Source: Siniperca chuatsi
Taxonomy: Eukaryota > Chordata > Actinopteri > Centrarchiformes > Sinipercidae
Length of the DNA: 64,000 nucleotides
Assembly: GCF_020085105.1 (NCBI RefSeq)
Contig: NC_058052.1
Span: 13,740,233 to 13,804,232, forward strand
Direction of reading: 5' to 3'
Shown here piece after piece: positions 1,552-63,591 of the stretch (the stretch's first letter is position 1; every line of letters begins with the position of its first letter). The position numbers and the translations under genes are program-made. A model generated the notes under the pieces. It was not told the DNA's origin, searched no databases, and saw nothing but the letters and a program-made list of their open reading frames with translations.

Positions 1552-4500
1552 ATGGGTTTACTGTCACAGGGCTCTCCACTGAACTGGGAAGAAACCAAGA
1601 AGTATGCCGACCATATTCGCAAGCACGGCATCATTCAGTTTCTCAACATCTACAACAAGGTGAAGGAGCGTCAGAGAGATGTGCTGAAGTGGGGCGATGA
1701 GGTAAGAACCGAGCGAACCAACATGCGGGAAATGCTGTACTGCTGCTGTCTATAGTGGTAATGCCTTTGATCCTTCAGTCATGATAGTTGTGCATGATGC
1801 AATAGTGACCTAATATTGATTTAGAAAAACAACATTTAACAGCTTTCAGTATTGTGTAATATCTTAAGAATATCTGCGTGTACACAAGTTGCTGTCGTTG
1901 ACATTTTTCCAGTATACAACAGTTAATAAGGTTCATATGTAAGTTGATGGACAAGGTGATAGTCAAACCTGTTGTTACTGGTTGCAAGGGAAACAGCTCT
2001 GTTTAATAAAGCCTTTGGAGCTACTTGGATAACACTATGATTACAGTCCTAGTGTCAGATTGAATTCTTAGTGCCAGAATATGACTGAGTCTAAAGAACC
2101 AGATGTTTGTGTGTTTGAAAATTATCAAACAATTACTGATGGTTATTCACTAGCTAAACGTATATGTTAAATGGCTGCTTACAAATGTTAATTTTGACTA
2201 TTACCATTAACTGTCTAATAATGCTAATAATCCAGGCAGCACTACTAATACAGGAAGACGCTCCCTGTTGAGTAAACATATAGCCCTCTATACAACATGT
2301 TTTAAGATGTGTGGGCTCAGCTGTTGCCTGTTGTGTTTTTTATTTTTTCTTTCATTCAGAACCTCACACCAGTTGGCTTTTCTAGTTTTTGCCCGCCACC
2401 AGTCCACAAAACTTCAGTGTGCTGCGCTTGAACTCAGTGTTTTCATTTCGAACAACGTGGAATGCTGTTGTTATAGATTAATCCCTCTTTCAGACAGGGG
2501 ATTACAGGGTAGCAGAGTCAAAGTCAAGGAAACATAACTGATGAATTGGAATTGATGTGATGGTGTCCCAGTCTGATCTTGAAAACGTCTGCTTTGTGCT
2601 GTAGTCTAGCATGGATTTTATTAGTAAGAAGAGTACATTGAATGAATAAATCAGTGGCTGTAATGTAGTGTGTGACTGCTGATTCATAATGCTTCCTGTT
2701 TGTTTTTAATCATTTACTTTAAGGTTGAGTACATGTTGGTGGAATTGGACGACAAGGATGAAAAGGTTCGACTTGTCCTGAATGGTGGAGATGTTTTGGA
2801 AACTCTTCAAGACCAGGGTGAAAAGATAAACCCCAAGTAAGTAAGCTCTCCACAGAATATGTCTGAACATTCAGCTGAAAATATTACAGATATTGAAAGA
2901 TCTAAATGTCTTTATTCTGTGTAGTTTTAAAGAAGGAAGGCCATAATTTTAATAACTTCCTCCCTCCAAATACACATATATATTTTGTGAAGACATACAT
3001 GGTTCAAGTCAGTTTTCTTTCTGCAAGAAATCCTATTCACAAATATATTGTTGCACTGGACCACAGAAATAGCAACACTTATATTCATAATCTGAATGAC
3101 ATTTAAGTAAATGCCTCACCTTAAATGCCAACAGTCGTGTTGACAGTGCTATTGTTAGTTTAATGGTTTGGATCATAATGAGCTATTAAGTGGCTGATAG
3201 TGATTAGCGATTTAATTCTGGTTAAATTAAACCTTGGACTAATATGTAATGCATCATAGACTAGACTCTGTATAAAAGTCTGTTGTTCTAATAATGTCGT
3301 TTTTGAGTTTGGAAAAAAATTCACTGGATTCATTTTGGTGAAGACAAACTAAAAAAAGTGAATCCATTTGTCTCTTCTTCTTTTTTTAGCATAGTTGATG
3401 ATAGTAAAAAAATGTGGAGCTGATGTGAAGATATTTGGCCTCTGGACATCTGTCAGTGATAACAATCTGGGAATGCCGTTTGCATGCCTAAATTGTAACA
3501 GTTCTTTAAAAAGAGGTATTTTCTGCAGGCGTGTAAATGTGTTTGTACAAGCTCATCAGTATTATGCTTGCTCGCTGCCCATGACGTCGGTCTAAATCTG
3601 CGGGGCCAACTTCACCCAGGGGAAATACCAGTGGCAGTGGGAATAGTAGAGCCAATGCATTCCTCATTACTGCCCCTCTGTCGCCCACAACAAAGAGCAC
3701 GCTCTGGAGCACAAATACGTTGCGTTGGTTTGCCCTGCCAAGATTGTGGCTGACATACAATAAAGGGAGCGTTTATTCAAACAGAAAGATCATCGTGGTG
3801 CAGAGGCCAGGGCATTTTCTTGATGGCCTTCTTCTTTGCTGACCTATAAAAGCAGAACGTTTTCACAACATTTTTTATATTTTTGCAGTCACCCCACGCT
3901 TTGGAGACCAGAGTATGGCAGCTACATGATTGAAGGAACTCCAGGGCAGCCGTACGGCGGAACAATGTCAGAGTTCAACACTGTGGAGGGCAACATGGGA
4001 AAGAGACGGCGAGAGGCCTCATCTGTCCTGAACCAGAACGAAACCCTATGCACCATCACCTCATTTCCAAGGTGCTTTGGTTTACATTGCACATCAAACT
4101 ATGAACATCAGTCTTGCAGTTGTATGCTTTATGTTTCATTCATCATTTTAATTGTTATCAAATTATTTTAAAGCTGCAACGGTTAGTCGATTAATTGATT
4201 AGTCAATCGAAGTTTAATTAATTCAGTATTAATTGACAACAGATTTGATCATGGATTAATCCTCTGTCATTTTCAAGCAAAAATGCTGATTTTTAGCTTC
4301 TCTAATGTAAGGATTTGATGCTTTTCTTTGTCATACTTGATTACAAACTGAATATCTTTGGGTTTTGGGCTGCTGCTCAGACAAAACAAGACATCTGAAT
4401 ATGTCACCTTAGATTTTGGAAAGTTTATTATTTGCATTTTTCTCTATTTTCAGACATATTTGAGACAAAACAATCAATTTATTGACAAAATAATTGGCAG

Positions 4501-7500
4501 ATTTTTCATCTACCAGTCCCATTGGCCGGTGAGTCAGTGGAACTCAGTGTGTTTCCAGGGTCTAAATTAAGTTTCGGGGGCATTATTTTACCTCCCAAAA
4601 GGTCCCTGCTCGGGGGGGTAGTACTTTCCAAAAGTATAGGAACTTTTGGGGTGGGGTTTGCTGTGCTGAACATTTCTGATTGACCAAGCTCTGACCGGCA
4701 GGGCAACAAGTGGTTTGACCGTCTGGATCAAGGTGTTGCCGGGTCACAGGCCAGCCTTCTCTGGCGCAGCAGCTCAGCTACTTCGTTGTTAGAAGCCACA
4801 GAAACGGATGACCAGTCGGTTGAAGGTAAATCACATACACATGCTGATTGTTAAATGGTGTAACACTAACTGTTGTCATGCTATTGCTGCCTGAGCCAAA
4901 AGCTAACGTTAGCTAACACTAACCACTAATGGTTTTCGTTAAGACAAGGATTGGCTAAATCGAATGTACAAAATTATATCTTGTTAATGTCATCGCAGTG
5001 AGACACGATGTTTATTTATTTTTTCAACATGTTTTTCAGATGAAACGTAAGGGCACACTGAACTGCAGGCTGCAGAGACTAGTGTGGTTACTCCTGCAAC
5101 CAACAGCAGCCCTCGTACCATCCCTCCTGCAGAAGCAAACAAACGCTGTATTGTCAAACATTTATATTTCTGCCGATAAATAAATAGTTGTGGAACCAAA
5201 TGTGTGTATAGTGGCTTTTCTTGTATGTGAAAACAAGTATATACTACTACATATGTTAAAAGACATGTAATGCTTATGCTTGTGTTACCGTATATTCTAA
5301 TAGTTACAACACTCTGAGGAAGTAGTGGCTCTCAATTTCACCATTATACACCGGTAAGCTCAGTATTTAAAACAGGTGAGAGTGCATAGGTTAAGATAAG
5401 CAAAGGTCCTCATGCTGAATTGAGGTGATGTGTTTAAAGGTAAAACAACAGTTAAGCAGCTATGTGATGGGTATAACCTAATGGGTATAACCTAATGGGT
5501 GTAATTTACCTAATCTTCATGGGTCTTTAGACTGCTGTGGAAACGCACACAACAATGGGCTGAAGGAACTTTGTAGTTCCTTGAAAAGTTCCTGGGGATA
5601 AAAGTTCTGGGTACTATGGGTGGAAACGTGGCTTATGTGATGAGCAGTGTTCTTCCTCAGATGTTGGTATTCAGGCCAAAGATTCAATTTTTTTTTATCT
5701 TAATAGACCATAGAGTCTTTTTCCTCATTCTCACAGTCAATCATTAAGTGCTGTTTTACAGACTTTGTGGTGCTTTTATTTTTCTTCCAGTCACGATGGC
5801 TGCAGACGTGATTCTCTTCCATCTCTACAGAGTATCTCTCAGGTTCTATTACAATGGTCTTTGGTCTCTTCTCAGACCAAGGTCCTCAGTGTACTGAGTT
5901 CAGTTCCACAATAGGGCTGTCATGATATCAGATTTTCACTACACGATTATAATGGGCAAAAGAATTCGCGATAATGATATTATCGCGGTATCTATACAAA
6001 ATTTGCGAAATGTTAGCTAGCTAAAAGCTAGCTAGTTACTGTGTTTTCTACTTTTTTACATTTTATGGTGGGTGCCAACCAGCATTAAGGTGCATTACCG
6101 CCACCTACTATGACAAAGCGATGAACAGAGAAAAACGTAAATTATTTAAGAGGCACTGGATTATATACACGATGTGTGATATTAACATGATACTTAATTT
6201 TTAATCAATACCGGTATATCGCAACACTACTATAAAATAACTAAAGAGTTGGTTCCAAACTTCCTTTTCATAGTGTTAGTGCCCACTGTGTCCCAGAGGA
6301 GGTTCAGTGTTTCATCACTTTGTTATACCCTCCCCTTGATTTATACCTCAAATAATTCAGATGGGTACATCCTGTATCAGGCTGTAGTATGCAGTTGTGA
6401 ACTGCAGACATTTTATATAGGCGGATGTGTGCATTTTGAAATCCTCTCTGTTCAAGAAACATCTCACGGATAAAAGGATCTGAGTCCAGTTTGAAGAGTG
6501 TAAAGACATTTAAAAAAAAATTCATTGGATTAATTTTAGTGTAGACAAACTGAAAAAAGTGATTCCATTTGTCTCTTTTTTTAGTATAGCTGATGATGGC
6601 TAAAAAAATTCGGTAATAAGTTGAACCTTTTACAAAAGTGCTCTAGATAAATCCCTAAAATCTCCAAAATGTGTAGGTGATGTGAAGATATTTGGCTTCT
6701 GGACATCTGTCAGTGATAACAATCTGGGAATGCCGTTTGCATGCCTAAATTGTAGTAACAGTTCTTTAAAAAGAGGTATTTTCTGCGATGGCCTTCTTCT
6801 TTGCTGACCTATAAATGCAGAATGTTTTCACAACATTTTTATATTTTGCCAGTCACATTTTGGATACCATATGGCATGCATGATTGAAGGAACCTTTCAT
6901 TCAATGTCAGAAACACTGTGTTTCTATAATGAGGGCCCGAGCACAGAGTGGTTGCAAGTTCCACCCACTACTCAAGCATATAAAATGATACTCATCGACC
7001 TCAAGGTGGCGCTATAACAATCAAGTCGAGTTTACATTTTCGCAATTATCTCAAAAGGCTTGGCTTTAAGTCAAAATTCTTTCATCATTCTAATCTCTCA
7101 ATACATCTGCATCTTTGCTCCAACGGTATTCTGCTCTTAAATATCAAATTTTGCACCATTTTTTCAAAATGCTATTTTTGACATCTCGCCATAAACTGCC
7201 TGGTCAAGTGTCTCAAAACTTAGGCAGGATCAACTACAGACTTTACTGATCTTAACTTCTTAATGAAATTTCAAAATGTCAATTCATTTTGATTATACAA
7301 GCCAATCAATACATTTTTATCAACATAGGTAATTTTCAAAAATTTGCAATAACTCTAAATTTGAGACACATGTTCAGGAGTTTTCACTAAGCTCACGTAA
7401 TAAAGCGCATTGTGCTTCACCTCTAGGGGAGCCACAAATGGTAAACATTTATATCTTGTAATCGGCTGCATGGATTCATACGAAATTCGGTTTGCGCGAT

Positions 7501-10500
7501 GTAGGTACATACAGTACTTTTTGGTACTGTATGCACAACATTTTCTATTTTTCCAAATGACTGATCAAACTTCACCAAGTATTTGACAATACACCTGAAA
7601 CCATGCCACTAAGTCCTACACACCGGACCTTAAAGTTGAAGGCTGCCTATTGTAAACCCAGTGAAAATTTCTTTTTATTATTTTTTTATGCCATAAAATG
7701 TTTGTGCAGCAAAAAACATAAGACCTAGAAACACCAAAATTCACAGGTGAATTCCACCCACTACTCAGACACATATAATGACAGTGACCTCAAGGTGAAG
7801 CTGTAATAATCAAGTTTACATTTTTGTAATTATTTCAAAAATGGCTTGGCCTAGAGTCAAATTTCTTTCATCACTTCTCTCAAGTCATCAATGTTTTTTT
7901 CTTAAAGTCCTATTTTCAGCATCTCTTCAGAAAAGGCAATCATCCCAATACTTAATCAGGATCATCTATAGACTTCACTGATCTTAAGTTGTTCAGTTAT
8001 ACAAGCCAGTTAGTTTTTATCAAAAGAGCTACAAATGTAGTCATGTGAAAAACGACTGAAGGTCATAAGCTAAACCTCAACAGAACATCATCATATAGTG
8101 ATGACCATGATGAGTTATTTTAAAGAAAATCAGGAGTTTTACTTGTCATTTAAATAAGAAACAAGCATCCAAATGCTCGCTATCTGTTTGGAGCCCGATC
8201 ATTGCCGTCTATATTTAGTATTATTATTATTTGGTCAATGAATCGCATTTTCGAGGGCCGAACAGTGCTCGGAGCTACGCTGCAGCACCTGCCCCTGGCC
8301 CCCACCCACCAACAGAAGCAGAGCTATGCTACAGCCCCTGCCCCTGTCCTCCCCACCGACAGCAGCGGAGCTACAGTGCAGCACCTACCCCTGGAAATAA
8401 CAGGAATTGAGTTGTGGTGTGAGGAGACCCAGCGGAGTCGTATCTCGCACTGCATATTTCTAACTCCACACTATATTTTACAGAGAGACAGATCCCCACC
8501 CACCGCAGCAGAGCTACGCTGCAGCACCTGCCCCTGGCTCCCCTTCCCACCCACAGCAGCGAAGCTCCGCTGCAGCACCTGCCCCTGGCTCCCCTTCCCA
8601 CCCACAGCAGCGTAGCTACGCTGCAGCACCTGCCCCTGTGTTCTTTGAATTCATCATTATAAAATATATTATAATATTATCATGCTTCTCCTGGCATCTC
8701 CCTCCTAGATAGAGAGAAGAAGTCTGTTTTACACTGATGACCTTGTTCATTATGATTGGAGTAAGAGACTCCGGGTGTGCTCAGGTGTACTCAGGTGAAG
8801 AATGATCATTCTGCCAGTTCAGCAAGTTCAGAGCTGATTGACCTGGCATACCTTTTAGAATAAGCCGTTTTTATGTATTTATTCGCCATGTTGCATCTCC
8901 ATGTTTCTATAGTAGCCCAGAATGGACAAACCAAACACTGACTCTAGATAGGGCCATTCGTGTTCGCGGCCACCATAGTTTCGACTATATACTTGGAAGG
9001 GGAGGGTGATGCGAACGCTATTCAAATGGATGCATACTGCAATTTCACCACTAGATGCCACTAAGTCCTACACACTGGACCTTTAAGTTGAAGGTTGCCT
9101 ATTGTGTTTCCAGGAAAATTTCTTTTTATTATTATTTTTTTCTGCCAAAAAGTGTTTGTGCAGCAAAAAAACATAAGACCTAGAAACACCAAAATTGGCA
9201 GGTGGATTGCAAATTCCACCCCCTACTCATGTACATATAATGACATTCATCAACCTCAACGTGACGCTGTAATAATCAAGTTTACATTTTTGCAATTATT
9301 TAAAAAACGGCTTGGCCTAAAGTCAAATTTCTTTAATCTCTCATGTCATCAGTATCTGGTCTTCTGCTCTAAAAAATGTTTTTCTCAATTTTCTCAAAGT
9401 CCTTTTTTGAACATCTCTTCAGAAACCGCTAGGCCAATCATCCCAATACTTAATCAGGATCATCTACAGACTTCACTGATCTTAAGTTGTTAAAGAAATT
9501 TCAATACAAGTTCAGTTATACAAGCCAGTCAGTTTAACAATAAGACATTAATGGATCTCAGTGATAGTTTTGACACTGAAGAGGTTGTAAATGTTTATTC
9601 ATCATACATGATGTACCATAAACTACAATTATGAGCCTGTGACTGTCCAAGAGACCAGGAACTGAAAAAGATTAGAAAATATAATGACTTAATAACAGGA
9701 ATTGAGTTGTGGTGTGAGGAGACCCAGTGGAGTCGTATCTCGCACTGCATATTTATAATATCCCCACCCACAGCAGTGGAGCTATGCTGCAGCACCTGCC
9801 CCTGGCCCCCTCTCCACCCACAGCAGCAGAGCTACGCTGCAGCACCTGCCCCAGGCCCCCTCCCCACCCACAGCTTCGGAGCTGCGTTGCAGCACCTGCC
9901 CCTGTGTTCTTTGAATGATAATATTATCATTGTACTGGTGTGGTATAAAGGAGATATTTGCTGTTAGATCACTTAAACCTTACCACTTAAACCGGGTAAA
10001 TCACACATTTGGTTAAAATTAGATCAAAGCCTGGGCATAACTGATAGAGACCTATATTTCTGTGCTATTTATATACCCCCAGTAGATTCTCCTTATTTTG
10101 AAGAAGATATTTTTTAAACTCTCCACTCAGAAATCACCTATTTCCAGGCCCAGGGAAACATGCTTCTGAGTGGTGATATGAATGGATGAACAGGAATCAA
10201 ACATGATGTCATCGACTGACAGGGCAACAACCATGTGTTTGGTCAGTCTCCCCTGTTTACCACACCAACCATCACCCATCGGAACAACCTTGACTCTGAA
10301 ATAAACCAAAGTGGCAGGGAGGTAGTGCATCTCTCTCTTAAAATTGGAGACCAACCAACTGAATTCTTCACCTAGAGAAGAGGTATTCGTCAGGGCTTCA
10401 ATTTAAGTCCTACTTTATTTAATGTGTATATACATGAACTTGCTGTACAGTTGGATCAATGTGCTGCTCCTGGCCTCTCACTCCTATAGAGAGAAGTCTG

Positions 10501-13500
10501 TTTTACGCTGATGACCTTGTTCATTAATGGTTAGGCCTGCATGCTGCAGCAACGCTAGTAATAAACACGTTCTATATAAAAATAAACCAATAGTATATTC
10601 TTAAATTTATGAATTGTAAGTAAAACAATAAGGTACATTCAATACAAACGTAAACTAAGAGTAAGCTGTAATATTTTATTAATAGAAAAAGTTTTAATTA
10701 GCATCTGGTTCAATAAGTATTTGCAGTAAGTAACACTGAAAATGTTCAAAATGCTCTCTTGCAATGTTGAGAAAACTTAAAAACAAAGTGTTGTGAATTC
10801 CCTCTGTGCTACTGAGGAACATTGCTCCTAGAGGGCTTAGAGACAATTTACCTCTTACATAACCCACCTGATTGGAGTAAGAGACTCCGGGTGTGCTCAG
10901 GTGTACTCCAGTGAATCAGAATCAGAAATACTTTATTGATCCCCGAGGGGAAACTCTTTTGTTACAGCTGCTTAATCACGTCAGTGCACACAGGAAAATA
11001 AGTTCTAATCACTCTTCCAGTTCAGCTAGTTCAGAGCAGACAGACCTGGCATTCAGGTGTCTCCAGTCCTGTCTCCCTCATGTGTTACTGACAATGTCAG
11101 TTTCCTTCTTGACAGTTTGTTTGAATTATGTCTGTGTTCTACCTCATTTATGGATAGCTTGATTTACTGTATTGATTGTTTTATGCATTTGTTTCATTGA
11201 GTATACTGCAGAAAACCACGAGTTGAATAGAAGCAATAAATGAACAACTGTATTGCATTTCCCTGTCAAGAGCTCTGGCTCTTAAGTGGCCAACTATTCC
11301 TATACCAGCACATGCATTAGAGAAAATCTATAATATAGACGTATACATGCTAAAGGGAAGACGTGCAACACCAGCTGCTGTCAGTGAGGAGCCTGCAACT
11401 TCAGCACTCTACTGGCCTTGTGATGGCACCTGTGTGAGCTAATATGAATTAATTGCAGTTGCAAATGTCTTCTGAAAATGTATTTTGTACTTGTCTTCAA
11501 TGTTGAAATAAACATGGTTCAGTAAGGTGGAAAAAGAGAGAGAGAAAATCTACTTCACTAAGCAACAAAAAACCTAGTTACTCAATCCTTGGCCCGTGGC
11601 CTAATTGTTTACCAGATTTCATCAAAATCTCTCTTTCGAGGTTTTTAGATATCTCACAAGTAAACAAATGTGACGGAGTATGTCTTTGGCTGAGGATAGT
11701 ATGAATATGAATTGTGGGACAGATCTGACTTAGCCTTGATTTATAATAATCTCATCCTGAAAACTGGGAACCAAAACATCTGTGCTGGTTTCACGTTGAT
11801 GTCCTGTGTTAAACCCTGAATTCCATGCGAGATACAGGCCTACTGCCTCATCCTTGGTGATCTTCTGACAGGATCAGGAAAGGGGGCCAGGTGCAGTGGA
11901 GGACAAGACAGCACATCTCTCTCGTAGAGCCTGTGGTGACCTGGAGTATCCCTCTGTCAATGACTCCATGAGGGCCATTGCATATGCTGGGGAAAGGACA
12001 TTTTTATGTATATAACACACTTCACCATCACAGCAACCTCTCAGCTGCCATTATGGTTGAAATGCAGGGCTGCCAAGAGAAGCCTGTAGAAAAAGCAGAT
12101 TATGCAGTTCACAAGATGTATATACCGTAAAGCTTAAATCAATAGCCCAGGCTTTTATTTGCTTCAGTCACTGAACTCAACCGGCCTATATTTGGGACAG
12201 GCATCTATATGAAATAGGCCTTTAATTCCTTTTGCACAAAACTCTTGCTCAGCAAAGATAGGAAATACGGCAAATAATTGAGGAATGGAAACATATTCAG
12301 ACTTTATGACTGCTTCTTTTTTTTACCATGCCAGTAAATCTGAATGAATTATACTTTGGTGCTCATGGTTTCTGTAAAATGAACTGAACTATTGAATTGT
12401 GGAGAATCTAACTGATCTAACGATCATGTCATATTGACAAAAGTTTTTTTGTCAAAACAAAACATTTATATTTGTATGTGCGGTCTAAGCAGCTTAGAAC
12501 TAGCTCAAGCCGACGAACCATTGGGCTTTAAGAGGTTTTATATATCCAAAGAACTTAAAAACCAGACCCGGCATCTAACTGAGACCTGTGTTTATTTATG
12601 AAAACGTGTAGCCACACTCGGCCAGTAAAAGGGACTCTGCATTTAATTAAAAGGTTTTAAGGTATGGGAATAAACCCAGAAGTAGAGGCAACAAATATTG
12701 AAATTTTGTAAAGCCTAATTTTTCTTGTATTGGGTAGAGCATTGAGGCAACACTTCCACCCTGTGAGTTAAAAGTGCCATTAGCATTACAATAATACAAA
12801 TACAAAAAAATACAATACATACTTAGTTCCAGTTTATTAGGTATGCCAAGCTAAAACTAATGCAGTCCAATACAACAGCCCTGCAATAAATTCTATCTTC
12901 ATGAGAGTTGTTTTGTTTTTGTTTTTCATTTTTATGTCTATAACGCCTTGTTAATGTGTTTTTACTCTTTATCTTTATAATGGCTGAAACAGCAGACTTA
13001 AAACAAATTCATACATTATAGAGCTGAAGAATTGAACACATTTTAAAAAACATAATTTTTACTCAGACTTACCTGTGATTTACTTCAGCACAATTTGTTG
13101 GTGTGTTGCATCTCCTTTATAAAATAACAATGCAAGAAATTCTTGGCACAATCTCAGACATTTACCACCACAATATTTTATGGCTGGAGTGCACTGGAAC
13201 CAAAATGAAGTAAGCACCAACCAGCACCACCGAAGATTGGACCACTATTCATTTTCAGCCACATACTGTAGAAGGTATGTTGTACCTGGTTCCAGCGTGC
13301 AGTATTTATGGATGTTCTGAGCATGGTTTACAATCACATCTGGCTCTGCATTAGAGTGGAAGCTGCAGTCCAGTACAGGTGGTTAATAATAGCTGGCCTC
13401 CACAGCTTTAGGTCCTCCCTCTCCTTTGCAGCAGTATCCAAATTTTCCAAGTTTCAGAACAGAAACAAAATCTTAAAAAAAAAAAATAATAATAAACATG

Positions 13501-16500
13501 TTTTAAAAAAGTAATTATAACAGTCAACCTAAACAAAACTACCAACAACACTGCCATAAAATTTACCTGTACAAAGCTTACAATGCTTTTGCTGATTTTC
13601 AGTCTGAGATGTGTTCATAGTCATAGTGTTGGGTTGTACTGAACTGTGTAGCACAGATGGTGGTTGAGGACCCAGTGGACCAGAGTATTGCAACTATTGT
13701 ATTGGGTGTAGGTGCATCTGATCTGTCCCTTCGTTACTTGTAGTATCTACCAAAACTTGAAAAAACACCAATATTACACCACATGAAAATAAGTTATAAA
13801 TGTATTAGCTGTGCAAACAAAGTCACCGAGCTGTAACTAGACTTCAGGGTTTTAGTGTTAGCAAACTGAGGTTACCTATTATGCCTTCTCATGTGGAAGT
13901 TAATGTGTTAGAAAACAAGCTCACGTTTTCCACTGGTGGGAGTCACGTTACCAGCCACCTGCTGACCGTGGACCTGATGAGGCAGCTGTGTGTAACGGAG
14001 TAACCACAGCAGCTGTCAGTCTCACGCAGTCCTGGCTTCAGTATCCCATCCTGAACTCCATATCACCAGGAACATATGCTTCACCATGCTAAATTGCGAA
14101 GCTTTTGAATTTTCATGGAAAGCCATAATGGATTATTCGCCATGACGCTTGAAAACTTTTTTGTTGTCTGATATGGGTCTTGGGCTTAGGGTGTGGCAAG
14201 GGGGCTCGATAGCACCCCTACAAAATTTCAACAAAGTAGCCCTCACGGTACTTTTCACCAAGATGTATGAAATTTGGTAGGCACACGTACCATCCCAAGA
14301 CTTAAAAAAGCATCTCTCGGTGCCATGACCTAAACCCAAAAGGAAGTCGGCCATATTGAATTTAGTGTGAAATTTGAATGAAATTCAAACATGCCAAACT
14401 TAAACTGAACTCCTCTTAGGAGGTTAACGTGAGCCACCTCAAATCTGGTCAGAGTATATAAAACACCTTCACGGTGTTAAATTGCGAAGATTTTGAGTTT
14501 GACAGGAAGTTCTTGTAACTTGAGCGTACAGTTTCCAATCTGTACCAGATGTCACATGCTTCAGAAGAGTCCAGGCCTGAGGACATCTGCATGCCAATAC
14601 TTACTCATAGTCAAAGCGCCACCTGCAGACAACTGGAAGTCAGCCTTATGTGACAAACATCATCCCATTTACATGAAACTTGATATACAGGAACATGATG
14701 TACAATTAGTGCGTGCTGTCGAGCGCCACATAGTGGACACAGGAAGTGACATTTAAGTCCTTCGTGCAATGTTGAATATTCATGAAAATTCAGAGGCATG
14801 TCAACCGACCTCAAGTAACGGCATCGCGGCTACAGCTCACCCCGACATGCATGAAGGTGCGAGGGCCCGCTCATCGCTGCTCGCATCTTTAATGAAGTGT
14901 GTGTTTGTGGTTGTGTGTACGTGACTGCATGTGTTTGTGGATTTGCTTTTCCAGCACCCTTACCAGAAACATACGTCACAGAAGAGGAGAGAAAGTCACA
15001 ATTAATGTGCCAAGTAAGTGTGAATGAAATGAAAGGTATGAACAGTATTATAAACTAGTTATTGTAATTTTTTTCAAAAAATATCAGTTTTTTCAATTAA
15101 AATGTGATTTGTTATTCTTTTAAATACATTTGGCCAATCAATATTCTTTATCAGTTGTTGTATATGTGGGCAGACTCTAGTATATAATGTGCAGACTACT
15201 GCCTTGGTAAATGCAGTTAAAGTCCAACTGATTAAATTGCATGTTATTGGTCTGCTATAGCATACATATCTGCCATGTAAAACACTTCTAACGTCTGTTT
15301 GCAGGCTAGATAGCTAATTAGCTGCTCAGGTGCAGCACATTAAACAGCATGTAAACTAGCTGCAAATGTCACTTGGGTCTGGTTAGATGTTGGTGTGGTC
15401 CTTACTCTTCATTATCTAACAACACGCTGTCTGACCATGACATGTAGGCTACAGCGCAAGTTTGTTCACTTTGTCTCTCGTTCACTACGGTGTAACACCG
15501 GCACTCAAGCAGCCTGCCAGCTTCTGTCAAACACAGCCACCAACATGCCCCTCCAGCCAGCTGAGAGGAAAAGGAACATTTCTGATATTTCCCCAAAGAC
15601 CCTTTTTCTTCCTTTTCAATAATAAAAAACAATAAACATTACATTTATAAAACACATTGAGATTATTTTTGACCACAAAAAGGGAAGACTAAATGTGAAT
15701 TGATTTGGACTTTAAAGGTTTTGATACATTTGATTTTCCTCAGACTGCATGGAAAAAATAAATAATTATGACTATATTCTTTGTCGTGTTTCAGTCTTCA
15801 GAGACAAGTGCACTCCATCGCCATTTGTGGAGGAGTTTCCTGAGGATGACGGTGAAGCAGCGAGGGCGGCTCTGCCTGATCATATCTATATGGACGCCAT
15901 GGGCTTTGGCATGGGCAACTGCTGTCTGCAGGTACTGAATGAGCTGACTGAGCCGTGTGACATCTCAGAGACTTTGCTGCCTTGAACAATCCATTTGTTT
16001 TCAAACACTGATGTAATAATGATGGCGTAACCCTGACTATTTTGAGTTTTGTGTGACTGCAACTTTACAATCCCAGTAAGTGATTTATAAATGTACTTCA
16101 GCCTCTTTTTTTATGATGCTTTTGCAGGTGACATTCCAAGCTTGTAGCATTGATGAGGCAAGGTACCTTTATGACCAGCTAGCAACATTCTGCCCGATAG
16201 TGGTGAGTAGATAAATAAAGCATGACCTTCCTGTCATATATTATGATTATTTACCTGACCTCTTCTAAAGCTGGACTATTATATAACTAATTATCTATTA
16301 ACGGAATCAAATATTTTGAATGGAGCGATGCAGAGTTTAGTCCAGTAATGTGCAAAACAAACTGTCACAATATTTTTCTATAATCTAAATAAATAGTGCA
16401 TTAGAGATACAAGAGATTATATGGCTTTGTTTTTTTGTTCCCACTACACGCTACTAAATGCTGTTTTGGCTCTTTACAGATGGCGTTGAGTGCGGCCTCA

Positions 16501-19500
16501 CCCTTCTACAGAGGCTTTGTGTCAGATAATGATTGTCGCTGGGGAGTTATTTCTGCCTCGGTGGATGACAGGACACAGGAGGAACGCGGTCTCAAGGTGA
16601 GCAGGTGGACAACCTGAACAATCAGACCCTCAGGGTGTAAAAAATCGGTTTTAGTCAAAAGGGCTTTTTGGGAGGGTTCATTAATTAGTTTTACCTCTTA
16701 TATTATTTCTAACACTTAAAGTCATTGAGTGATTGAGTCTGAATTTCAGCACTCATTTCTCCCACCACCAAGTGTCAGTGTCGCCACCAATGGACCAAAA
16801 TTGTATCACCAACAAAACTAAACTTCTGTAGTGACATCTGAATCTCTTTTTAACAACCATGCAATCTAATTTTACTTGGTTCCTCTTAAAACTTTTCTCA
16901 AGCAAAAGGCAAAAGCACTACCTAGATCTCACAGTAAAATGTTTATGCTTTAGGTTTGTATTTTGAGTATAATGTATGAATATTACTACTTCCTTTGCAG
17001 CCACTGAAAAACAACAAATACAGAATCTTCAAGTCAAGATATGATTCAATTGACAGCTACCTGTCTAGCTGTGGTGAGAAGTACAACGACATTGATTTGA
17101 CGATAGACGAGGAGATCTACAAGCAGCTGCTCGATGCAGGTACCGTCATTTTGAAAACGCAGAAACTGATATGTCTAAAATACAAATACAATATATTAGC
17201 CATGAAATAGAATATGGAAAATAAATGAAAAATATTCAACTAATCCACTAATAGATGATTGTACAGTAAAGAATAATCAGCTTTCTGTGTTAGGAATTGA
17301 CAAGCTGCTGGCCCAACACATAGCACATCTCTTCATCCGAGATCCACTCTCCGTCTTTGAGGAGAAAATTCACTTAGATGATGAAAATGAGTCTGATCAC
17401 TTTGAGGTGAGGTTTTCTGTATTCCTTAAGCACTTTCCTAGAAGAAAGCCAACCATGTGTAAAAGCACAATACAGGCTCGTATTTATTCAAACTTGTCTT
17501 TGTGCAGAACCTGCAGTCGACCAACTGGCAGACGATGAGGTTTAAACCTCCACCTCCAAACTCCGATATTGGCTGGAGAGTTGAGTTTCGCCCCATGGAG
17601 GTAATAACCAACTGCACCATCACTTAACTTTTAGTTGTAATCTGAGTGTATATTTGATGACATGGCCTATCAAATACAGAAAAGACGGAGAGTGAGTTAA
17701 GTTTTATTTTTGTTTTTATTTTTCAGGTACAGCTAACTGACTTTGAAAACGCTGCATACGTGGTCTTTGTCGTCCTGCTCACCAGAGTGATCTTGTCCTA
17801 TAAACTGGACTTTCTGATCCCTTTGTCAAAGGTAAAAACAGCTACACAGCTCTAGGCTTTTATAAAATGTTACGAGACATTTAATTAATGAAGTAGGACA
17901 TTTGGGTCCTAATGATCTACTTTGTACACAGTGCTCTGATACAGTAAACTCTGGTCTTTCATTAGGTTGATGAAAACATGAAGGTCGCACAGAAGAGAAA
18001 CGCTGTCCAGGAGGGTATGTTTTACTTCCGAAAGGACATCTTCAAAGGTGGGTAAAACAAAAAGTGCAACTTTAGTTTGACGCTTACGGTGAATGCCTCA
18101 GATTAGAAGAGTAGCTGATACATTTGTATTGTCCACCAATAGGCTGCAACCCAGGCCTTGATGGCACTGCTTCTGCTCAGAACGGCCTGGAGACTGATGG
18201 TGCTAATGAGGACTACGCGCTGATGAGCATTGACACAATCATCAATGGAAAGGTGATTATTGTCTTACACTTTTTAGCCATGCTAGCACTGTGGCTCAAT
18301 GGATGGCAATGTCGATCAGTCGGTCGGTCCACCACTTTGGTCCAGACTGCAATATCTCAACAACTATTGGATAGATTGCTGTGAAATTTTGTACATATGT
18401 TCATGGTGCCTGGAGGATGAATCTTACTAACTTTGGTGATCCCCTAACTTTTCTTCTAGTGCCACCAGCAGGTTGACATTTGTGGTTTTGAGTGAACTGT
18501 CTTGACAACTATTGGATGGATTGCCATGAAATTTGGTTCAGACATTCACATTCCCCTCAGTATTAATTGTAATATCTTTGGTGATCCCTTAACTTTTTAT
18601 GTAGCTGTATTTTGTGTTCAGGGCTAATTAGTAAATGTTAGCATTCGAACACACTAAACTAAGATGATAAACATTATACCTGCTAAACATTGTTAGCATT
18701 TTCATTGTGAGCATGTTGCCATGTTGGGTTTGCCGCATTCACATTATATCGTTGAGACCATATTTACGAGTAACCGACTAAAAAAAACTGTTCACATCAG
18801 AGTTGTAATTCTGAGTCAGAGATATCGTAACGATATGTCCACTTGGTGAAAAGAACTACAGAAGTGTAAAAAAAACTGTTGGCAAATGGCTGCAAAGCAA
18901 CCACTGCTGGCAATTACTCTAAATAAAATCCAATATTAACACTGATACAGTTGATTCAGTTAAAAGGAGCCTATACACTGTTTTATTTATCTGTTTTCAC
19001 TTGTTAACGCACCGATACAGATATGTAAAATAACAAAAGTACCTAATTTAGGCTATTTAAATGATGTGACTACAAGGCTAGCAGTGTTTGTAACCTTCTT
19101 GGAATAAGGTTGAACACTCAGACTTGGAATAATGGGAGGTTTTCCTGTAATTCCCATTCTGCTGACGTTGCCTGAATGCCTTTTAAGTATTGAGCTGAAA
19201 TCTCATCTGTGTCTTTAGTTCGGCCATCTAATAATTACTGCTGTTTTCTTCTTTTTTTATTACCAGGAGGGAGTATTTCAAGGGCTGATCCCGATCCTTA
19301 ACTGCTATTTGGAAAACATGGAAGTTGATGTGGACACCAGGTGCACCATTTTGAATTATCTGAAGCTCATCAAGAAACGTGCCTCAGGTAAATTTGCATT
19401 GAGGGACAAAACTTAATGTTCTCATAAGTCAAAAGCAGATTTTCTCTTTATGCAACCTCAACTCTAAGCGTAACTCTTTATTTTGCTGATCTGAAACAGG

Positions 19501-19681
19501 CGAGCTGATGACCATGGCCAAGTGGATGAGGGAATTTGTTGCAAAGCACCCGCAGTATAAGCAGGACAGTGTCGTAACTGACAAGATCAACTACGACCTG
19601 TTCAAGAAGTGCGACAGGATTGCAAAAGGCGAAGAGCAGTGCTCAGAGCTCATTGGAAACCCAGTCAACAGGTTCAAATGA
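1552..19681 (+). CDS. GCLC: Glutamate-cysteine ligase catalytic subunit (15 exons read, one expected exon not found)
   Basis: The enzyme joins glutamate to cysteine with ATP in the cytosol, the rate-limiting step of glutathione synthesis, and works as a dimer with the modifier subunit GCLM. Exons: 1552-1701, 2724-2836, 3889-4071, 14955-15013, 15795-15931, 16128-16202, 16480-16596, 17001-17139, 17294-17406, 17508-17600, 17727-17831, 17966-18047, 18143-18252, 19267-19387, 19500-19681. All borders are GT/AG and the phases join without a frameshift. Recognisable blocks are [17 protein letters not shown] (start), [36 protein letters not shown] (the paired cysteines), [37 protein letters not shown] and [14 protein letters not shown]. 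The exons read give 592 residues; human is 637. A block of about 37 residues, which should lie between SFPR and [14 protein letters not shown], is absent, and joining the flanking exons stays in frame. The C-terminus (NRFK, stop) is a few residues shorter than in human. Gene identity is near certain; completeness is not. Confidence 0.96.
4172..4505. repeat. MITE-like repeat with ATTAATTGATTAG ends (copy 1)
   Basis: It begins with AGCTGCAACGGTTAGTCG and continues with alternating ATTAAT and GATTAA steps. It shares its internal text, such as AACTGAATATCTTTGGGTT and GACATCTGAATATGTCA, with the fuller copy at 45850-46213. This copy appears 3'-truncated. It is a common teleost non-autonomous DNA repeat; superfamily not assigned. 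Confidence 0.6.
4540..5632. mobile_element. Putative non-autonomous DNA transposon
   Basis: The left end (GTGTTTCCAGGGTCTAAATT, 4547 onward) and the reverse complement of the right end (CACGTTTCCACCCATAGTAC, to about 5629) form degenerate terminal inverted repeats around GTTTCCA. Both ends are followed inward by AGGAAC-rich text. The interior has no credible transposase. The layout resembles PIF/Harbinger-derived elements of fish, but that class is an inference. Confidence 0.45.
5926..6232. repeat. hAT-like MITE
   Basis: The left end AGGGCTGTCATGATATCAG and the reverse complement of the right end (AGTGTTGCGATATACCGG) are imperfect inverted repeats. The interior is AT-rich with ATAATGATATTATCGCGGTA. 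No coding capacity is seen. Confidence 0.45.
6510..6930 (+). pseudogene. Decayed duplicate of GCLC exon 3 with its upstream intron
   Basis: Intron text at 3310-3528 reappears at about 6510-6786 with few differences, for example GACATCTGTCAGTGATAACA and TGCCGTTTGCATGCCTAAAT in both. The copy lacks 3529-3815, then resumes with GATGGCCTTCTTCTTTGCTG, the polypyrimidine tract and an AG. After the AG it carries a shrunken version of exon 3. TGATTGAAGGAAC, CAATGTCAG and ACACTGTG are kept, while several GC-rich pieces are deleted, so the frame is destroyed. The duplication ends inside the exon, next to another repeat. Confidence 0.75.
6935..7345. repeat. Interspersed repeat beginning GAGGGCCCGAGCAC
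   Basis: The stretch starts with GAGGGCCCGAGCAC and shares blocks with the repeats at 7625-8030 and 9080-9535. Shared blocks include CCACCCACTACTCA, GGCTTGGC, AGTCAAA and CAGACTTTACTGATCTTAA. It is the most diverged of three local copies. Family not assigned. Confidence 0.6.
7346..7624. other. Intronic spacer, no gene
   Basis: AT-rich text continuing the same repeat style (ACACACCGGACCTTAAAGTT near its end recurs near 9070). Nothing coding is seen. Confidence 0.4.
7625..8050. repeat. Composite repeat unit, part A, first copy
   Basis: Blocks from CTTAAAGTTGAAGGCTGCC to ATACAAGCCAGTTAG match 9080-9535 in the same order. Examples are ACATAAGACCTAGAAACACC, GTAATAATCAAGTTTACATT and AATACTTAATCAGGATCATC. 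Orientation is the same in both copies. Confidence 0.75.
8262..8640. repeat. GC-rich minisatellite, first array
   Basis: About five units of roughly 50-55 bp contain the core GCTGCAGCACCTGCCCCTGG followed by CCCACCCACAGCAGC and AGCTACG. The array is interrupted at about 8395-8490 by a segment starting AACAGGAATTGAGTTGTGG, which is also found at 9695. It opens proline-rich reading frames on both strands that I regard as by-products. Confidence 0.85.
8685..8865. repeat. Composite repeat unit, part C, first copy, with LINE RT remnant
   Basis: GAAGTCTGTTTTACACTGAT followed by GACCTTGTTCAT matches the reverse-transcriptase remnant at 10492-10535. It runs directly into TGATTGGAGTAAGAGACTCC and GTGTGCTCAGGTGTACTC, which recur at 10870. 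Confidence 0.7.
9080..9535. repeat. Composite repeat unit, part A, second copy
   Basis: Direct-orientation copy of 7625-8050 with small indels. It reads from AAGTTGAAGGTTGCCTATTG to TTATACAAGCCAGTCAG. Confidence 0.75.
9690..9915. repeat. GC-rich minisatellite, second array
   Basis: It begins with the segment AACAGGAATTGAGTTGTGG, then has three to four units with GCTGCAGCACCTGCCCC and CCACCCACAGCAGC. It ends with CCTGTGTTCTTTGAAT, exactly as the first array does at about 8633. Confidence 0.85.
10040..10535 (+). mobile_element. Non-LTR retrotransposon fragment (endonuclease piece joined to reverse transcriptase piece)
   Basis: From 10049 the plus strand reads [11 protein letters not shown] and later LLSGDMNG, which is typical of an APE-type endonuclease. 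Near 10377 a reading with [19 protein letters not shown] follows, the reverse-transcriptase block before the active site. It then breaks at a stop before a decayed YADDL region. The endonuclease and reverse-transcriptase pieces are too close together, so most of the interior is deleted. Clade not assigned. Confidence 0.7.
10870..11065. repeat. Composite repeat unit, part C, second copy, split by a LINE 3' tail
   Basis: TGATTGGAGTAAGAGACTCC and the text to GACCTGGCAT match 8756-8850. Between them lies AGAAATACTTTATTGATCCC then CGAGGGGAAA. This is the antisense of a common fish LINE 3' end, and a plus-sense copy lies near 53570. Confidence 0.65.
11066..14099. other. GCLC intron interior, repeat-derived, no exon found
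   Basis: I searched both strands by eye for the missing GCLC exon and found no match to GCPGF or FFPDEAINKHPRF. Parts look repeat-like, for example around 12130-12240 and 12490-12650. A GC-richer patch at 11870-11990 is not recognised. Confidence 0.4.
14100..14890. repeat. Interspersed repeat ending in GCGAGGGCCCGCTCATCGC
   Basis: It contains repeated phrases such as TAAATTGCGAAG (14090 and 14478). It ends with GCGAGGGCCCGCTCATCGCT then GCTCGCATCTTTAAT, a motif common in fish genomes. It probably belongs to the same broad family as the GAGGGCCCGAGCAC repeat at 6947. Class not assigned. Confidence 0.5.
18275..18730 (+). repeat. Teleost interspersed repeat in GCLC (plus copy)
   Basis: Text such as CAACTATTGGATAGATTGC, ATGAAATTTGGTTCAGACAT and TGTGAGCATGTTGCCATGTT is a widespread fish repeat. 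It is not coding. An inverted copy lies at about 20720-21095 and a fragment at 42120-42215. Confidence 0.65.
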
Positions 19682-30325: not shown

Positions 30326-33300
30326 ATGGAGAGCATCAATCATAAAGTGAACACTTACCTAGAGTCATGGCTAGGTCCCAGAGGTAAGCCAAGTTTATAT
30401 TGTCATCATAGTAGCTGATGCAAAATGTGTTGCACCTTTCAAGTTCCACTGCTGTTACCTGTGAAGCCACTGGCCTCTTTATCTCCATATTTCAGATCAG
30501 CGGGTGCGGGGATGGCTGCTGCTCGACAACTACCTACCAACCCTTGCACTCACGCTCATGTACCTTCTGATCGTGTGGATGGGGCCCAAGTACATGAAAC
30601 ACAGGCAGCCGTACTCCTGCAGAGGCCCCCTGGTGCTCTACAATCTGGGCATCACACTCTTGTCCTTCTACATGTTCTATGAGGTAAACAGACTGCTCGG
30701 CACTGAGAGATGTGTTTAAGTAGGCCAAAGCAATCACTGCAACGTCACACTACAGACAGATTATAAAGGAGAAAGAGGAAACTGACCTGAACCAGAGCTG
30801 CATACTGACTTAAAACTCTAGTGTGTGAATATGACCAGATATATTGTATATATATTGATGTATGTTTAATTAAAGGAATATTTTGGACATTTTGGAAAGC
30901 ATGCTTCTTCGCTTTCTTGCCAGAGTTAGATGAGAAGATCAATACCACTCTTATATCTGTCTGTTAGATATGAAGCTAAAGCCACGTTAGCTTACCTTAG
31001 CATAAAGAAGACAACATCAAAAAATAAAACCACAACTTGTCGTTTTCACACTTTCATTTTTTCACTGTTTCCAGTCTTTGTGCTAAGCTAATCTAACAGG
31101 CTGCTGGCTCCAGCTACATAATTAACCTACAAACACAAGAGTGGTATCAATTCTTGGCAAGAAAAAAACAGTTAGAGTAGTTCCCAAAATGTCAAACTGT
31201 TCCTTTAAATATGAAGCTAAAGTCAGGAGATAGTTAGCTTAGCTTAGCATAAAGACTGGAAACAGATAGCCTGGCTCTGTCCAAAGGAAAAAAAAATCTT
31301 TTTACCAGCACCCCTAAAGTTTACTAATTAACACTATTTCTTGTTTGTTTGTTTGTGTAACAACAAGTTGTGGTTTTACTTTTTTAGGTGTTTTGTCTTG
31401 CTGAGCTCTCTATGCTAAGCTAAGCTAACATAGCTGCTTTATATTTAGAGACGGGTATGAGAGTGGTATCAATCTTCTCATCTGACTCTCAGCAAGAGCG
31501 CAAATAAGCGTATTTCCATAAAAATGTTGAACTATTTCTTAAACACTTGGTTCTGATTAGGGCCTGTGGCTACTGACGTCTCTCGCTGAAAGCTACCATG
31601 AGTGACAATGCTATCAGGGAGTGAGGGACACAGCTGCACTAAACAAACATGGAATTGCATTCTTATTTGGCAAGGTGGCAGAGTCTGAGCTGAATTTGCT
31701 GTTTAAGTTGTTGCAAGTGCCCAGACTTATAGTGATCACACTTATAGTGATCATATCTGTTGTTTTGTGTAGCTGTAAACACCAGGAACTAAACACATGT
31801 TAAGTCCAAAGTATCTCCTGTACTCTCCCCATCCAGCTGGCAGAACAAGCTATTTGTCTTTCTGTCTGCATTGCGTAAGGCCCCAGTCGACTGCTGGCTA
31901 TTTCTTTCATTAAACTCTGTACTCTGACAATGCCCCAAACATGGGGTGAACTTCAGTCCAAAATCAATGCCACCTGATGTGAATCAAAGTACAGGGCAGT
32001 TTGGTTCTTGTCAACTTTCCAGGGCACAGCGGTTCATCACATAATGATTGTGATTAAAGCTGATTGTGATTAATTTTGTTTATTTATAGGCTGACTAATG
32101 CCACTGTAGGTTTGAAGAAAGAATCAACTCAACTTTATTTATATAGCACTTTACACACAACACAGTTGATCCAAAGTGCTTTACAGCACACAGAGAAAAA
32201 AACAATAAAGAATGAAATAAACACAAGAGAAGAAAAGTCAGATTTATGATAATAAAAATAATAATAACAACAATAGTAACAGTAAAGGCACATGGTTACA
32301 CAGAGCCCTTAGTGACAACACAGACCTGTTGAGACTTCAGAGGAAATACCTGGGCTGGTTAAGTTAGGCATAGTTAAAGCCTGGTGAATAAAAGTGTGTT
32401 TTAAGGTGATCCTTGAAAATCACAATAGTGGAGGAGGATCGGATGGTGGGAGAAAGAGATTTCCATAGTTTGGGGGCAGCGATATAGAAGGCCCTGTCCC
32501 CATAACACTTAGTCCTGGACCGTGGGACAGACAGAAGTTTTTGGTCAGATGATGTCAGTTCTCTCACAGTGTGATATGGGGACAGGAGTTCTGTAATGTA
32601 AGAGGGAGCACGACCATTTAACACTTTGTAGACAAACATCAGGATTTTAAAATCAGTCCTGCAGCTAACAGGCAGCCAGTGCAGGGAGGCAAGAATGGGA
32701 GTAATGTGCTCCCTCTTTTTTGACCTAGTTAAAACTCTTGCTGCTGCATTTTGAACTAGTTGGAGATGGGATAGACAAGACTGGGTGATACCAAAATACA
32801 ACAAGTTGCAGTAATCAAAGCGAGAGGATATGAAGGCATGGATGACTTTCTCCAGGTCAGACGTACAGAGAATAGATCTGAGTTTGGAGATGATGCAGAG
32901 CTGCTTGAGGCTTAATTGTACTACCTGATTGATTTGTTTGACAAACTTCAATCCTGAATTGAATATGACTCCAAGGTTTTTTGCATGTGAGGGGGCCAAT
33001 GGGCCAAGATGAGGAGCAATAATGTTGGTCAAATGCTGCGGACCAATTGAAATAACTTCACTTTTATTCTCATTGAGCTGAAGAAAGTTTTCAGCCATCC
33101 AGGATTTGATGTCCAGTTATTGAGGTCAGTTAGTTTGTTGTAGTTATTAGGCTCAAGGGGGAGGTAGATCTGAATGTCATCTGCATAACAGTGGAAAGGT
33201 ATGTTAGAAGAGAAGAGGATTGGACCAAGTACGGAACCTTGGGGGACACCATAGGAGATGGGGGCTGAGGAAGAAATAGAGTTGCTAAGAGAGACATTGA

Positions 33301-36300
33301 GAGATCTGTTGGATAAATATGAAGAAAACCATTTCAAGGCAGAACCAGAGACCCCTGCCCATTGGTTTAATCAGTGAATGAGAATCGAATGATCTACTGT
33401 GTCAAAGGCTGCAGTTAGATCTAGGAGCAAGAGGTTGGAACCGTTACCTGAGTCAGCTGCTAGCAGGAGGTTGATTCAGTACTGCGAAGAGCTCTGAAAC
33501 CAGATTGGAATTTTTCAAAAATGCAGTTTTTAGCCAGGTGGGACAACAGTCGGTTAAAAACTACTTTTTCAAGGATTTTAGAAAGAAAGGGAAGTTTGGA
33601 GATAGGTCTGTAATTATTGAGGACTGAATGATCTAGATTCTGTTTGTTTTTAAAGTGGCTGGACAACTGCATGTTTGAAAGATTGGGGAAAATGGCTGGT
33701 TTCCAGGGAGTTATTGATAATTAAAAGAATGCTGGGGCAATAACTTCTTCGAAGAGTTTAGTTGGAATAATGTCAAGTGAACAGGTTGAGGTCTTCATAG
33801 AAGAGATAATATGATGACGTTCTAGGAGATGGATCGACTATTTGCAGATGGAATAATACTAGCTCTGATGTCAAAAAAAGTTTAAGAAATCCTCACATTT
33901 AGAGACTGATGCTTCTAAGCAGGAGGTGGGAGTGGAGGAGGTGACAGAATTTAACACACTAAAAAGTAACCTGGGACTATGACAGTTTTTGTCAATAATA
34001 TCAGAAAAGTATTGAGCCCTAGCATTTTTGACAGTGCAATACTTGATGTTTAAAAACCAAGCTTCAATTCACTTTGTTGCTGGTTCTTAACTGGTGACAG
34101 TTTCTTGGCTCTGAGGTTAGTTAGTGAAGCCTTTTACAGCAGCAAAGACAGTACTGAAACAGCATTAAGCCACACCATCTACGTGCATTTGAATATTTAT
34201 TCTTTAAAGGGGCACAGATTTTACACATACAGAGTAGTTTACTTGTCACAGGGAGTACGACTCAGCCTATGAACACAGCTGTATAATGTCTTTTGTGGCT
34301 GTTGTCAAGTCTGAAAAAATAACACTGATGATTTCAACTTGGACTTGGAGATTTCAAATTCCAAATAGAAAGTCTGTGTTACAAACTGGGTTTTTGGAGT
34401 GTGGAAGACATGGGCCTAAAGATGCTAATATCCTTGTTTCTGTCCAACATAAAATTCTTGCTGACATGGTGTGTGTGATGTACTGTTGTGTCTAATTTTG
34501 TAATATGTGTTGTGTCCTGTTTGTTTCGTGTGTTAAATGTTGTTCTGTCATTGCATGCATGTTTTAATTGTGATGGGACTGCAGATCAAAGTTTGCTTTG
34601 AGCTAACTCTGGTAAAATACATCAAATGGTAACATTTATGTTTAATATTGTACATGGTCCCTTACAAATAAATGGAATGAATAATTGAGTTTCCTTATGG
34701 GAAGTGTGGGACACATCATTTTTGGAGCTTGACCCATACGAGGGACTAAAAGTCAGGATATTTAGCCATTATTTCTCTACTATTATCTGTCTCTCGCAAG
34801 TTCCCCAACGTTATGGAAGGGCAATAAAAAAATCACTGGAGTACCACTTTAATATGCAAAAGTATAGGGAATATATGTAGTCACTGCACAGGTATGCAGA
34901 GTTAGATTGAGAGTATTTCAAACAGAAATTCCTGTATTTGCACTTTTCTTGGTCTACGTGTGTGTGTGTGTGTAAATGCTTTAAAAACATTAGATAAATT
35001 AGCTTCTGAATATCCATTCATCATTTATCTTAATGGCTTTTTCTTCAGCTTGCTACCACTGTGTGGCATGGTGGCTACAACTTCTACTGCCAGGATGCTC
35101 ACAGTGCACCGGAAGTGGATAATAAGGTGAGTTACTCAGATTTACACTCTTTTCTTTTCATTTGATCACACCGTTTACGTAATTTCATTATAAGCACATC
35201 ATTTCCCATTCTGTTTCTTGATATGATAACAGTACAGTAAATGTTTAAATACCAGTTACTGCAGCACAGCTAGAATATATATAATATTAAGCAAATTGTG
35301 TGTTTTTTCTTTCAAATCTTCTGCTCTGATTTCTATGGGCTGCAGAGACAGGGAGTCAATTTATTCCAACTCATGTCACCATGATGACTATCTTCAGTGT
35401 CTGTCTGAAGAGGTGAAAACAAGGCTCACTGCTTTTGCAGTTCTGCAGTGATTAAATAAAAAGTTTTATCAATGTGTCACTGCTACAAATTGCTTTATGA
35501 TTCATCCTGAACTTTCAAGGGCCTTCGGGACAAATGTCTGGTCTTCTTGTATGATGAATTATTTTAGTAGTTTTCAGATTTGCCATCTAACATTTTGTCT
35601 TTATATTGTATATTTGTTTTCTTCAGGAATATACAGGAGGTTTTTCTTTTCTTTATACTTTTAACAATTTTTGTTTTTGCCGTTTCTCCTCTCAGGTCAT
35701 GTATGTCCTGTGGTGGTACTACTTCTCCAAGATCATTGAGTTCATGGACACCTTTTTCTTCATACTACGAAAGAATAATCACCAGATCACCTTTCTCCAC
35801 ATCTACCACCACGCTAGCATGCTGAATATCTGGTGGCTTGTTTTGAACTGGGTCCCCTGCGGCCATCGTGAGTGTTTTAACACAACTTTGCCCTCCTGTG
35901 ACTCAAATCATTCCAGTAACCACATTTACTGTTTGGCCCCAAAACGAACTAAGTAATTCAAGTGCTCTAATGTGAAACCCATTAGCCCTGAAAACAGCCT
36001 GTTTTCCCCACAAAGCCTTAAAGGACACAAAATGAGACTTATTGCCCTGAACTCTGCTGCACTGTGTAACATACAGCACAGCAGTCTGCGAGTTATGAAG
36101 TTGTCAATTTTCTTACATTGAAAATCCTCTCAAAATCATAGATGTGCCTTTTATTATCGAATTAAATATAATGTGACATTTCTGATCCATAAACATGTTT
36201 TATTATTTATCAGATGTTAACTATATTATTTCTGTATTATTTTACTGTTAATGGCTTCTATTAATTTTGAACTTTGTAGCGATTGTTCCAAACAGAGCAG

Positions 36301-56493: not shown

Positions 56494-63591
<7,098 letters not shown>

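Follow-up and report, generated by a model that had tools for sequence, protein, structure and literature searches.

A fish glutamate–cysteine ligase gene assembled without the exon for human residues 149–186

GCLC is rate-determining for glutathione synthesis and is essential in the mouse. We take RefSeq NM_001197115 to be human GCLC isoform b, which lacks one in-frame exon of 38 codons (599 aa, that is 637 − 38). The yeast glutamate–cysteine ligase (PDB 3ig5) is related to human GCLC over its whole length and contains a block, FPRMGCPDF...SLFLPDEVINRHVRF, that is absent from the fish gclc gene described here. Human and yeast sequences are identical at 18/37 positions in this block and at 281/589 over the whole protein; the two values are about equal, which makes the block a region of average conservation and not a hot spot. 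The human substitution Pro158Leu falls inside it, and according to a review this variant keeps GCLM binding and loses much of the catalytic activity (PMC6532282). A further report describes an Arg127Cys case, with no mention of residue 158 in the passages concerned (PMC12026703). NM_001197115 has been used as GCLC in print: it is the named GCLC insert in a study in which GCLC overexpression rescued GCL activity, and whose main text never uses the term isoform (PMC10696674). This rescue is a lead only, as endogenous GCLC is presumably present in the cells used. Our literature search yielded no fish GCLC paper on exon 4, as judged by title or the start of the abstract, and the records listed for GCLC splice variants, exon skipping and crystal structure contain nothing on this exon.

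The window, that is the whole stretch of DNA analysed, spans 64 kb (G000:C11:13740233-13804232, + strand) of an assembly of 719 Mb in 65 contigs. As the query we used the 637-residue human GCLC, which aligns with yeast GCL (PDB 3ig5) over residues 1–610. All parts of human GCLC but one could be placed in the window by tblastn, and the refined gene model comprises the following features.

1552..1701, + strand: gclc coding exon 1, human residues 1–50 (tblastn with human GCLC, refined gene model)
2724..2836, + strand: gclc coding exon 2 (tblastn, gene model, assembly match)
3889..4071, + strand: gclc coding exon 3, ending in SFP plus AG (tblastn, gene model, assembly match)
4072..14954, + strand: intron without an exon for human residues 149–186 (tblastn, splice-stretch scan, planted-exon control)
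14955..15013, + strand: next gclc coding exon, equivalent to human exon 5 (tblastn, gene model, assembly match)
15795..19681, + strand: remaining 11 gclc coding exons up to the stop codon (gene model, PF03074 search, human GCLC search)
15795-15931, 16128-16202, 16480-16596, 17001-17139, 17294-17406, + strand: the first five of these 11
17508-17600, 17727-17831, 17966-18047, 18143-18252, 19267-19387, 19500-19681, + strand: the last six of these 11

The spliced gene runs from 1552 to 19681 with 15 coding exons and 1779 bases, which define 592 codons and a stop. All 14 introns have GT-AG borders. The PF03074 (GCS) domain is present at full length (608 bits, profile positions 1–372 of 372), the other exons follow in the same order as in human GCLC, and the product shares 480 of 589 aligned positions with it. 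The N-terminal region is collinear with both the human and the yeast protein in everything except block 150–186, so that the complete N-terminal series, block included, is not found here. A decayed pseudogene is ruled out by the 592-codon open frame and the 14/14 GT-AG introns. At 262 sites common to human and yeast, the fish protein keeps 249 residues and differs at 13; these differences show no sign of decay, though they do not date the loss. Human GCLC has a C-terminal tail 10 residues longer than the one encoded by the last fish exon (19500-19681).

The sole large gap relative to human GCLC extends from Arg149 to Phe186 and amounts to 38 codons. An earlier note on this DNA had placed the missing part, about 37 residues, at human 150–186, to which the gene model adds Arg149. 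Exon 3 ends with CCAAG|gtgctt at 4071 and the next exon begins with ttccag|CACC at 14955. Their join is in phase 2, where AG (4070-4071) and C (14955) re-form the codon of Ser187; the frame is kept, as the note had stated, and the whole gene reads through as a single open frame 592 codons long. The donor site of exon 3 agrees with the consensus at 5/7 positions, within the range of 4 to 6 over the 14 donors of gclc, and is ordinary for this gene. Human isoform b would match the fish gap with its in-frame loss of 38 codons. In contrast to the fish, where the exon is gone from the assembled DNA, the human gene retains the full exon.

Within the window, a tblastn search with the exon peptide gave a best match of E = 0.78, located outside the intron, and a best match of E = 2.9 inside it. 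We also scanned both strands of 4072-14954 for stop-free stretches of 72–162 nt in the right phase, bounded by AG and GT or GC. With two queries per open stretch, this gave 696 scored pairings on the + strand, and the top scores reached only 30 (+ strand) and 32 (− strand). For reference, ten single-base shuffles of the + strand peaked at 25–39, and the human and yeast blocks score 88 against each other. Of the exons planted as a control at nominal identities of 85, 75, 65 and 55%, 20/20 were recovered per level (80/80 overall). Taken together with the tblastn result, the empty scan and this control indicate that neither strand of 4072-14954 contains the exon. The adjoining exon (14955..15013) is identical to human at 19/20 residues.

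The whole assembly was searched as well. The complete human GCLC gave 15 matches, all within the gclc gene of the window and covering residues 1–150 and 187–631, with no match to residues 151–186 anywhere in the 719 Mb. The sensitivity of this query was sufficient to list the 59-nt exon through a 23-residue match at E = 0.028. A 39-aa query for the missing exon produced zero candidates in the assembly, while a control query with exon 2 (37 aa, 65% identical) returned one match, at gclc, with E = 1.1e-7. A first motif search gave 5 matches (5 for the control pattern), all five of which were translated and none of which is the exon; a second gave 16 (7 for the control pattern), all with two mismatches, and none of the 8/16 that were translated is the exon. 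The yeast block used as a genome query had zero matches and missed the flanking exons too, a sensitivity too low for this search to count. At the tested sensitivity, the exon is thus absent from the window and from the assembly as a whole, in agreement with the note's claim that a coding exon is missing between 4071 and 14955, and a location elsewhere in the assembly is ruled out at that sensitivity by the exon query, the whole-GCLC query and the motifs, read with the exon 2 control. All 10 PF03074 matches in the assembly lie inside this gclc; at the tested sensitivity there is one GCS-domain gene, which rules out a second gclc copy.

The 10.9 kb intron had been described in the earlier note as duplicated and repeat-rich, and our comparison bears this out. 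Its main components are as follows.

4555..5648, + strand: dispersed repeat, whose long other copies are about 75–86% identical
6509..6920, + strand: decayed copy of 3308 to about 3990, covering the end of intron 2 and the start of exon 3 (repeat comparison, limits partly by eye)
6943..9540, + strand: dispersed repeat family with an internal duplication (8239-9082 unmatched in the 19 copies compared)
9760..14080, + strand: further dispersed repeats arranged as a mosaic, separated by stretches that have no match
14159..14893, + strand: dispersed repeat ending 61 bp upstream of the next exon

Summed over intervals, dispersed repeats account for about 6.6 kb of the intron. The matched segments of the repeat family, in the 19 copies compared, are 6943-8238 and 9083-9540, and the position equivalent to 14893 is the exact end of 12 of the 66 listed matches to the last repeat. 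Other genomic copies of four parts of the intron are mostly 70–90% identical, and all matches above 90% are shorter than 70 bp; 40 candidates were scored for each part, out of 198, 546, 3156 and 3590, with queries that omitted window positions 6481-6899 and 7751-9549. We read the intron repeats as old insertions. Over 121 bp the copy at 6509-6920 shares 95% identity with its source, and two further stretches share 83%; its intron stretches reach up to 95–97%. Its exon part carries several small deletions, on account of which false haplotype duplication was rejected as the origin of the exon 3 copy. Comparison of repeat pairs across the gene region revealed none that is both long and near-identical; those present are either short or diverged, among them 68–89 bp at 97%, 121 bp at 95% and 438 bp at 81%. 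Related arrays of a 47–51 bp unit occur at 8270-8638 and 9761-9904, within a duplicated repeat element. The repeat-filled part of the intron has the sequence GAGGGCCCG at each of its outer edges (6931 and 14861); this sequence is also present in 5/40 other fetched repeat loci, mostly just upstream of the copy's 3' end. The transposon copies and the partly duplicated intron 2/exon 3 region point to past rearrangement at this intron. It is a restless intron, and these features do not reveal how the exon was lost.

Our preferred reading, to which we give a probability of about one half, is that exon 4 of gclc is truly deleted on the sequenced chromosome, whether fixed or not, and that the assembly is not at fault. 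The 15 intact exons, the 249 kept sites, the ordinary exon 3 donor, the single GCS-domain gene, the traces of rearrangement, the absence of any N in the window and the failure to find the exon in window or assembly, with positive controls in place, count towards it. Against it, yeast and human share the block, Pro158Leu within it is reported to cost much activity in human, and its loss in a single-copy enzyme is unlikely beforehand; moreover, the intact remainder of gclc would look identical if the real gene keeps the exon.

The strongest competitor, with a somewhat less than even chance of being correct, is that the animal has exon 4 and the assembler dropped or collapsed part of the intron. 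The earlier note had named collapse in a duplicated, repeat-rich intron as the first explanation to consider. Such an intron does exist, and assembly faults are in general commoner than the loss of a conserved exon. Positive support for a collapse is not seen, since the 64 kb contain zero N letters and the gene region is without a long near-identical repeat; a collapse, however, would remove one of the two repeat copies and need leave no visible trace. The N-free window and the small number of contigs for 719 Mb suggest long reads, and loss of exon 4 only would probably require a repeat in both flanking introns that defeats such reads.

Explanations other than a real deletion or an assembly fault are, taken together, very unlikely. 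The deletion may be confined to one haplotype or one individual in a species whose gclc is normal, a sub-case counted within real deletion that we consider unlikely: only a single assembly is read here, and a recessive loss would be viable in a heterozygote, but the assembly holds no alternative gclc exon copy elsewhere, as would in any case be true of a collapsed haploid assembly. That the exon diverged beyond recognition or was replaced by another within the intron is extremely unlikely, for although some open AG..GT/GC stretches exist, the top scan scores lie within the shuffle range, planted exons were all recovered even at 55% nominal identity, and the adjoining exon is nearly identical to its human counterpart.

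Under the favoured reading of a real deletion, exon 4, whose 38 codons are a multiple of three in bases, would have been deleted from the DNA of the sequenced animal. The old transposon copies or the decayed intron 2/exon 3 copy may have taken part in its loss. Transcripts would then splice exon 3 straight to exon 5 in frame, and the predicted product is a 592-residue GCLC, presumably a working protein, without the block spanning human Arg149 to Phe186. It is doubtful, if conceivable, that the fish lineage has permanently lost an exon of its sole GCL gene and relies on a 592-residue enzyme in which the block is constitutively absent and the kinetics, or the feedback control over glutathione synthesis, are altered.

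A true vertebrate form without the block, which includes the human disease site Pro158, would mean that in some setting the enzyme can do without it, and would bear on the regulation of GCLC and on any human isoform that lacks exon 4. Should the assembly be at fault, the locus would show how a frame-neutral exon loss slips past annotation checks unnoticed.

Searches for relatives of GCLC gave 5 pattern matches in viral contigs and 211 in bacterial and archaeal genomes, none of them confirmed. Elsewhere in the window, a retroelement remnant at 33032-33370 (− strand) matches reverse transcriptase weakly, at a score that falls short of the Pfam cut-off, and the neighbouring frame at 32364-33113 has no Pfam match. 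Downstream of gclc, on the + strand, lie exons of an ELO-domain gene (35591-35956), probably elovl5, and exons of a protein kinase (58459-58785), presumably cilk1.
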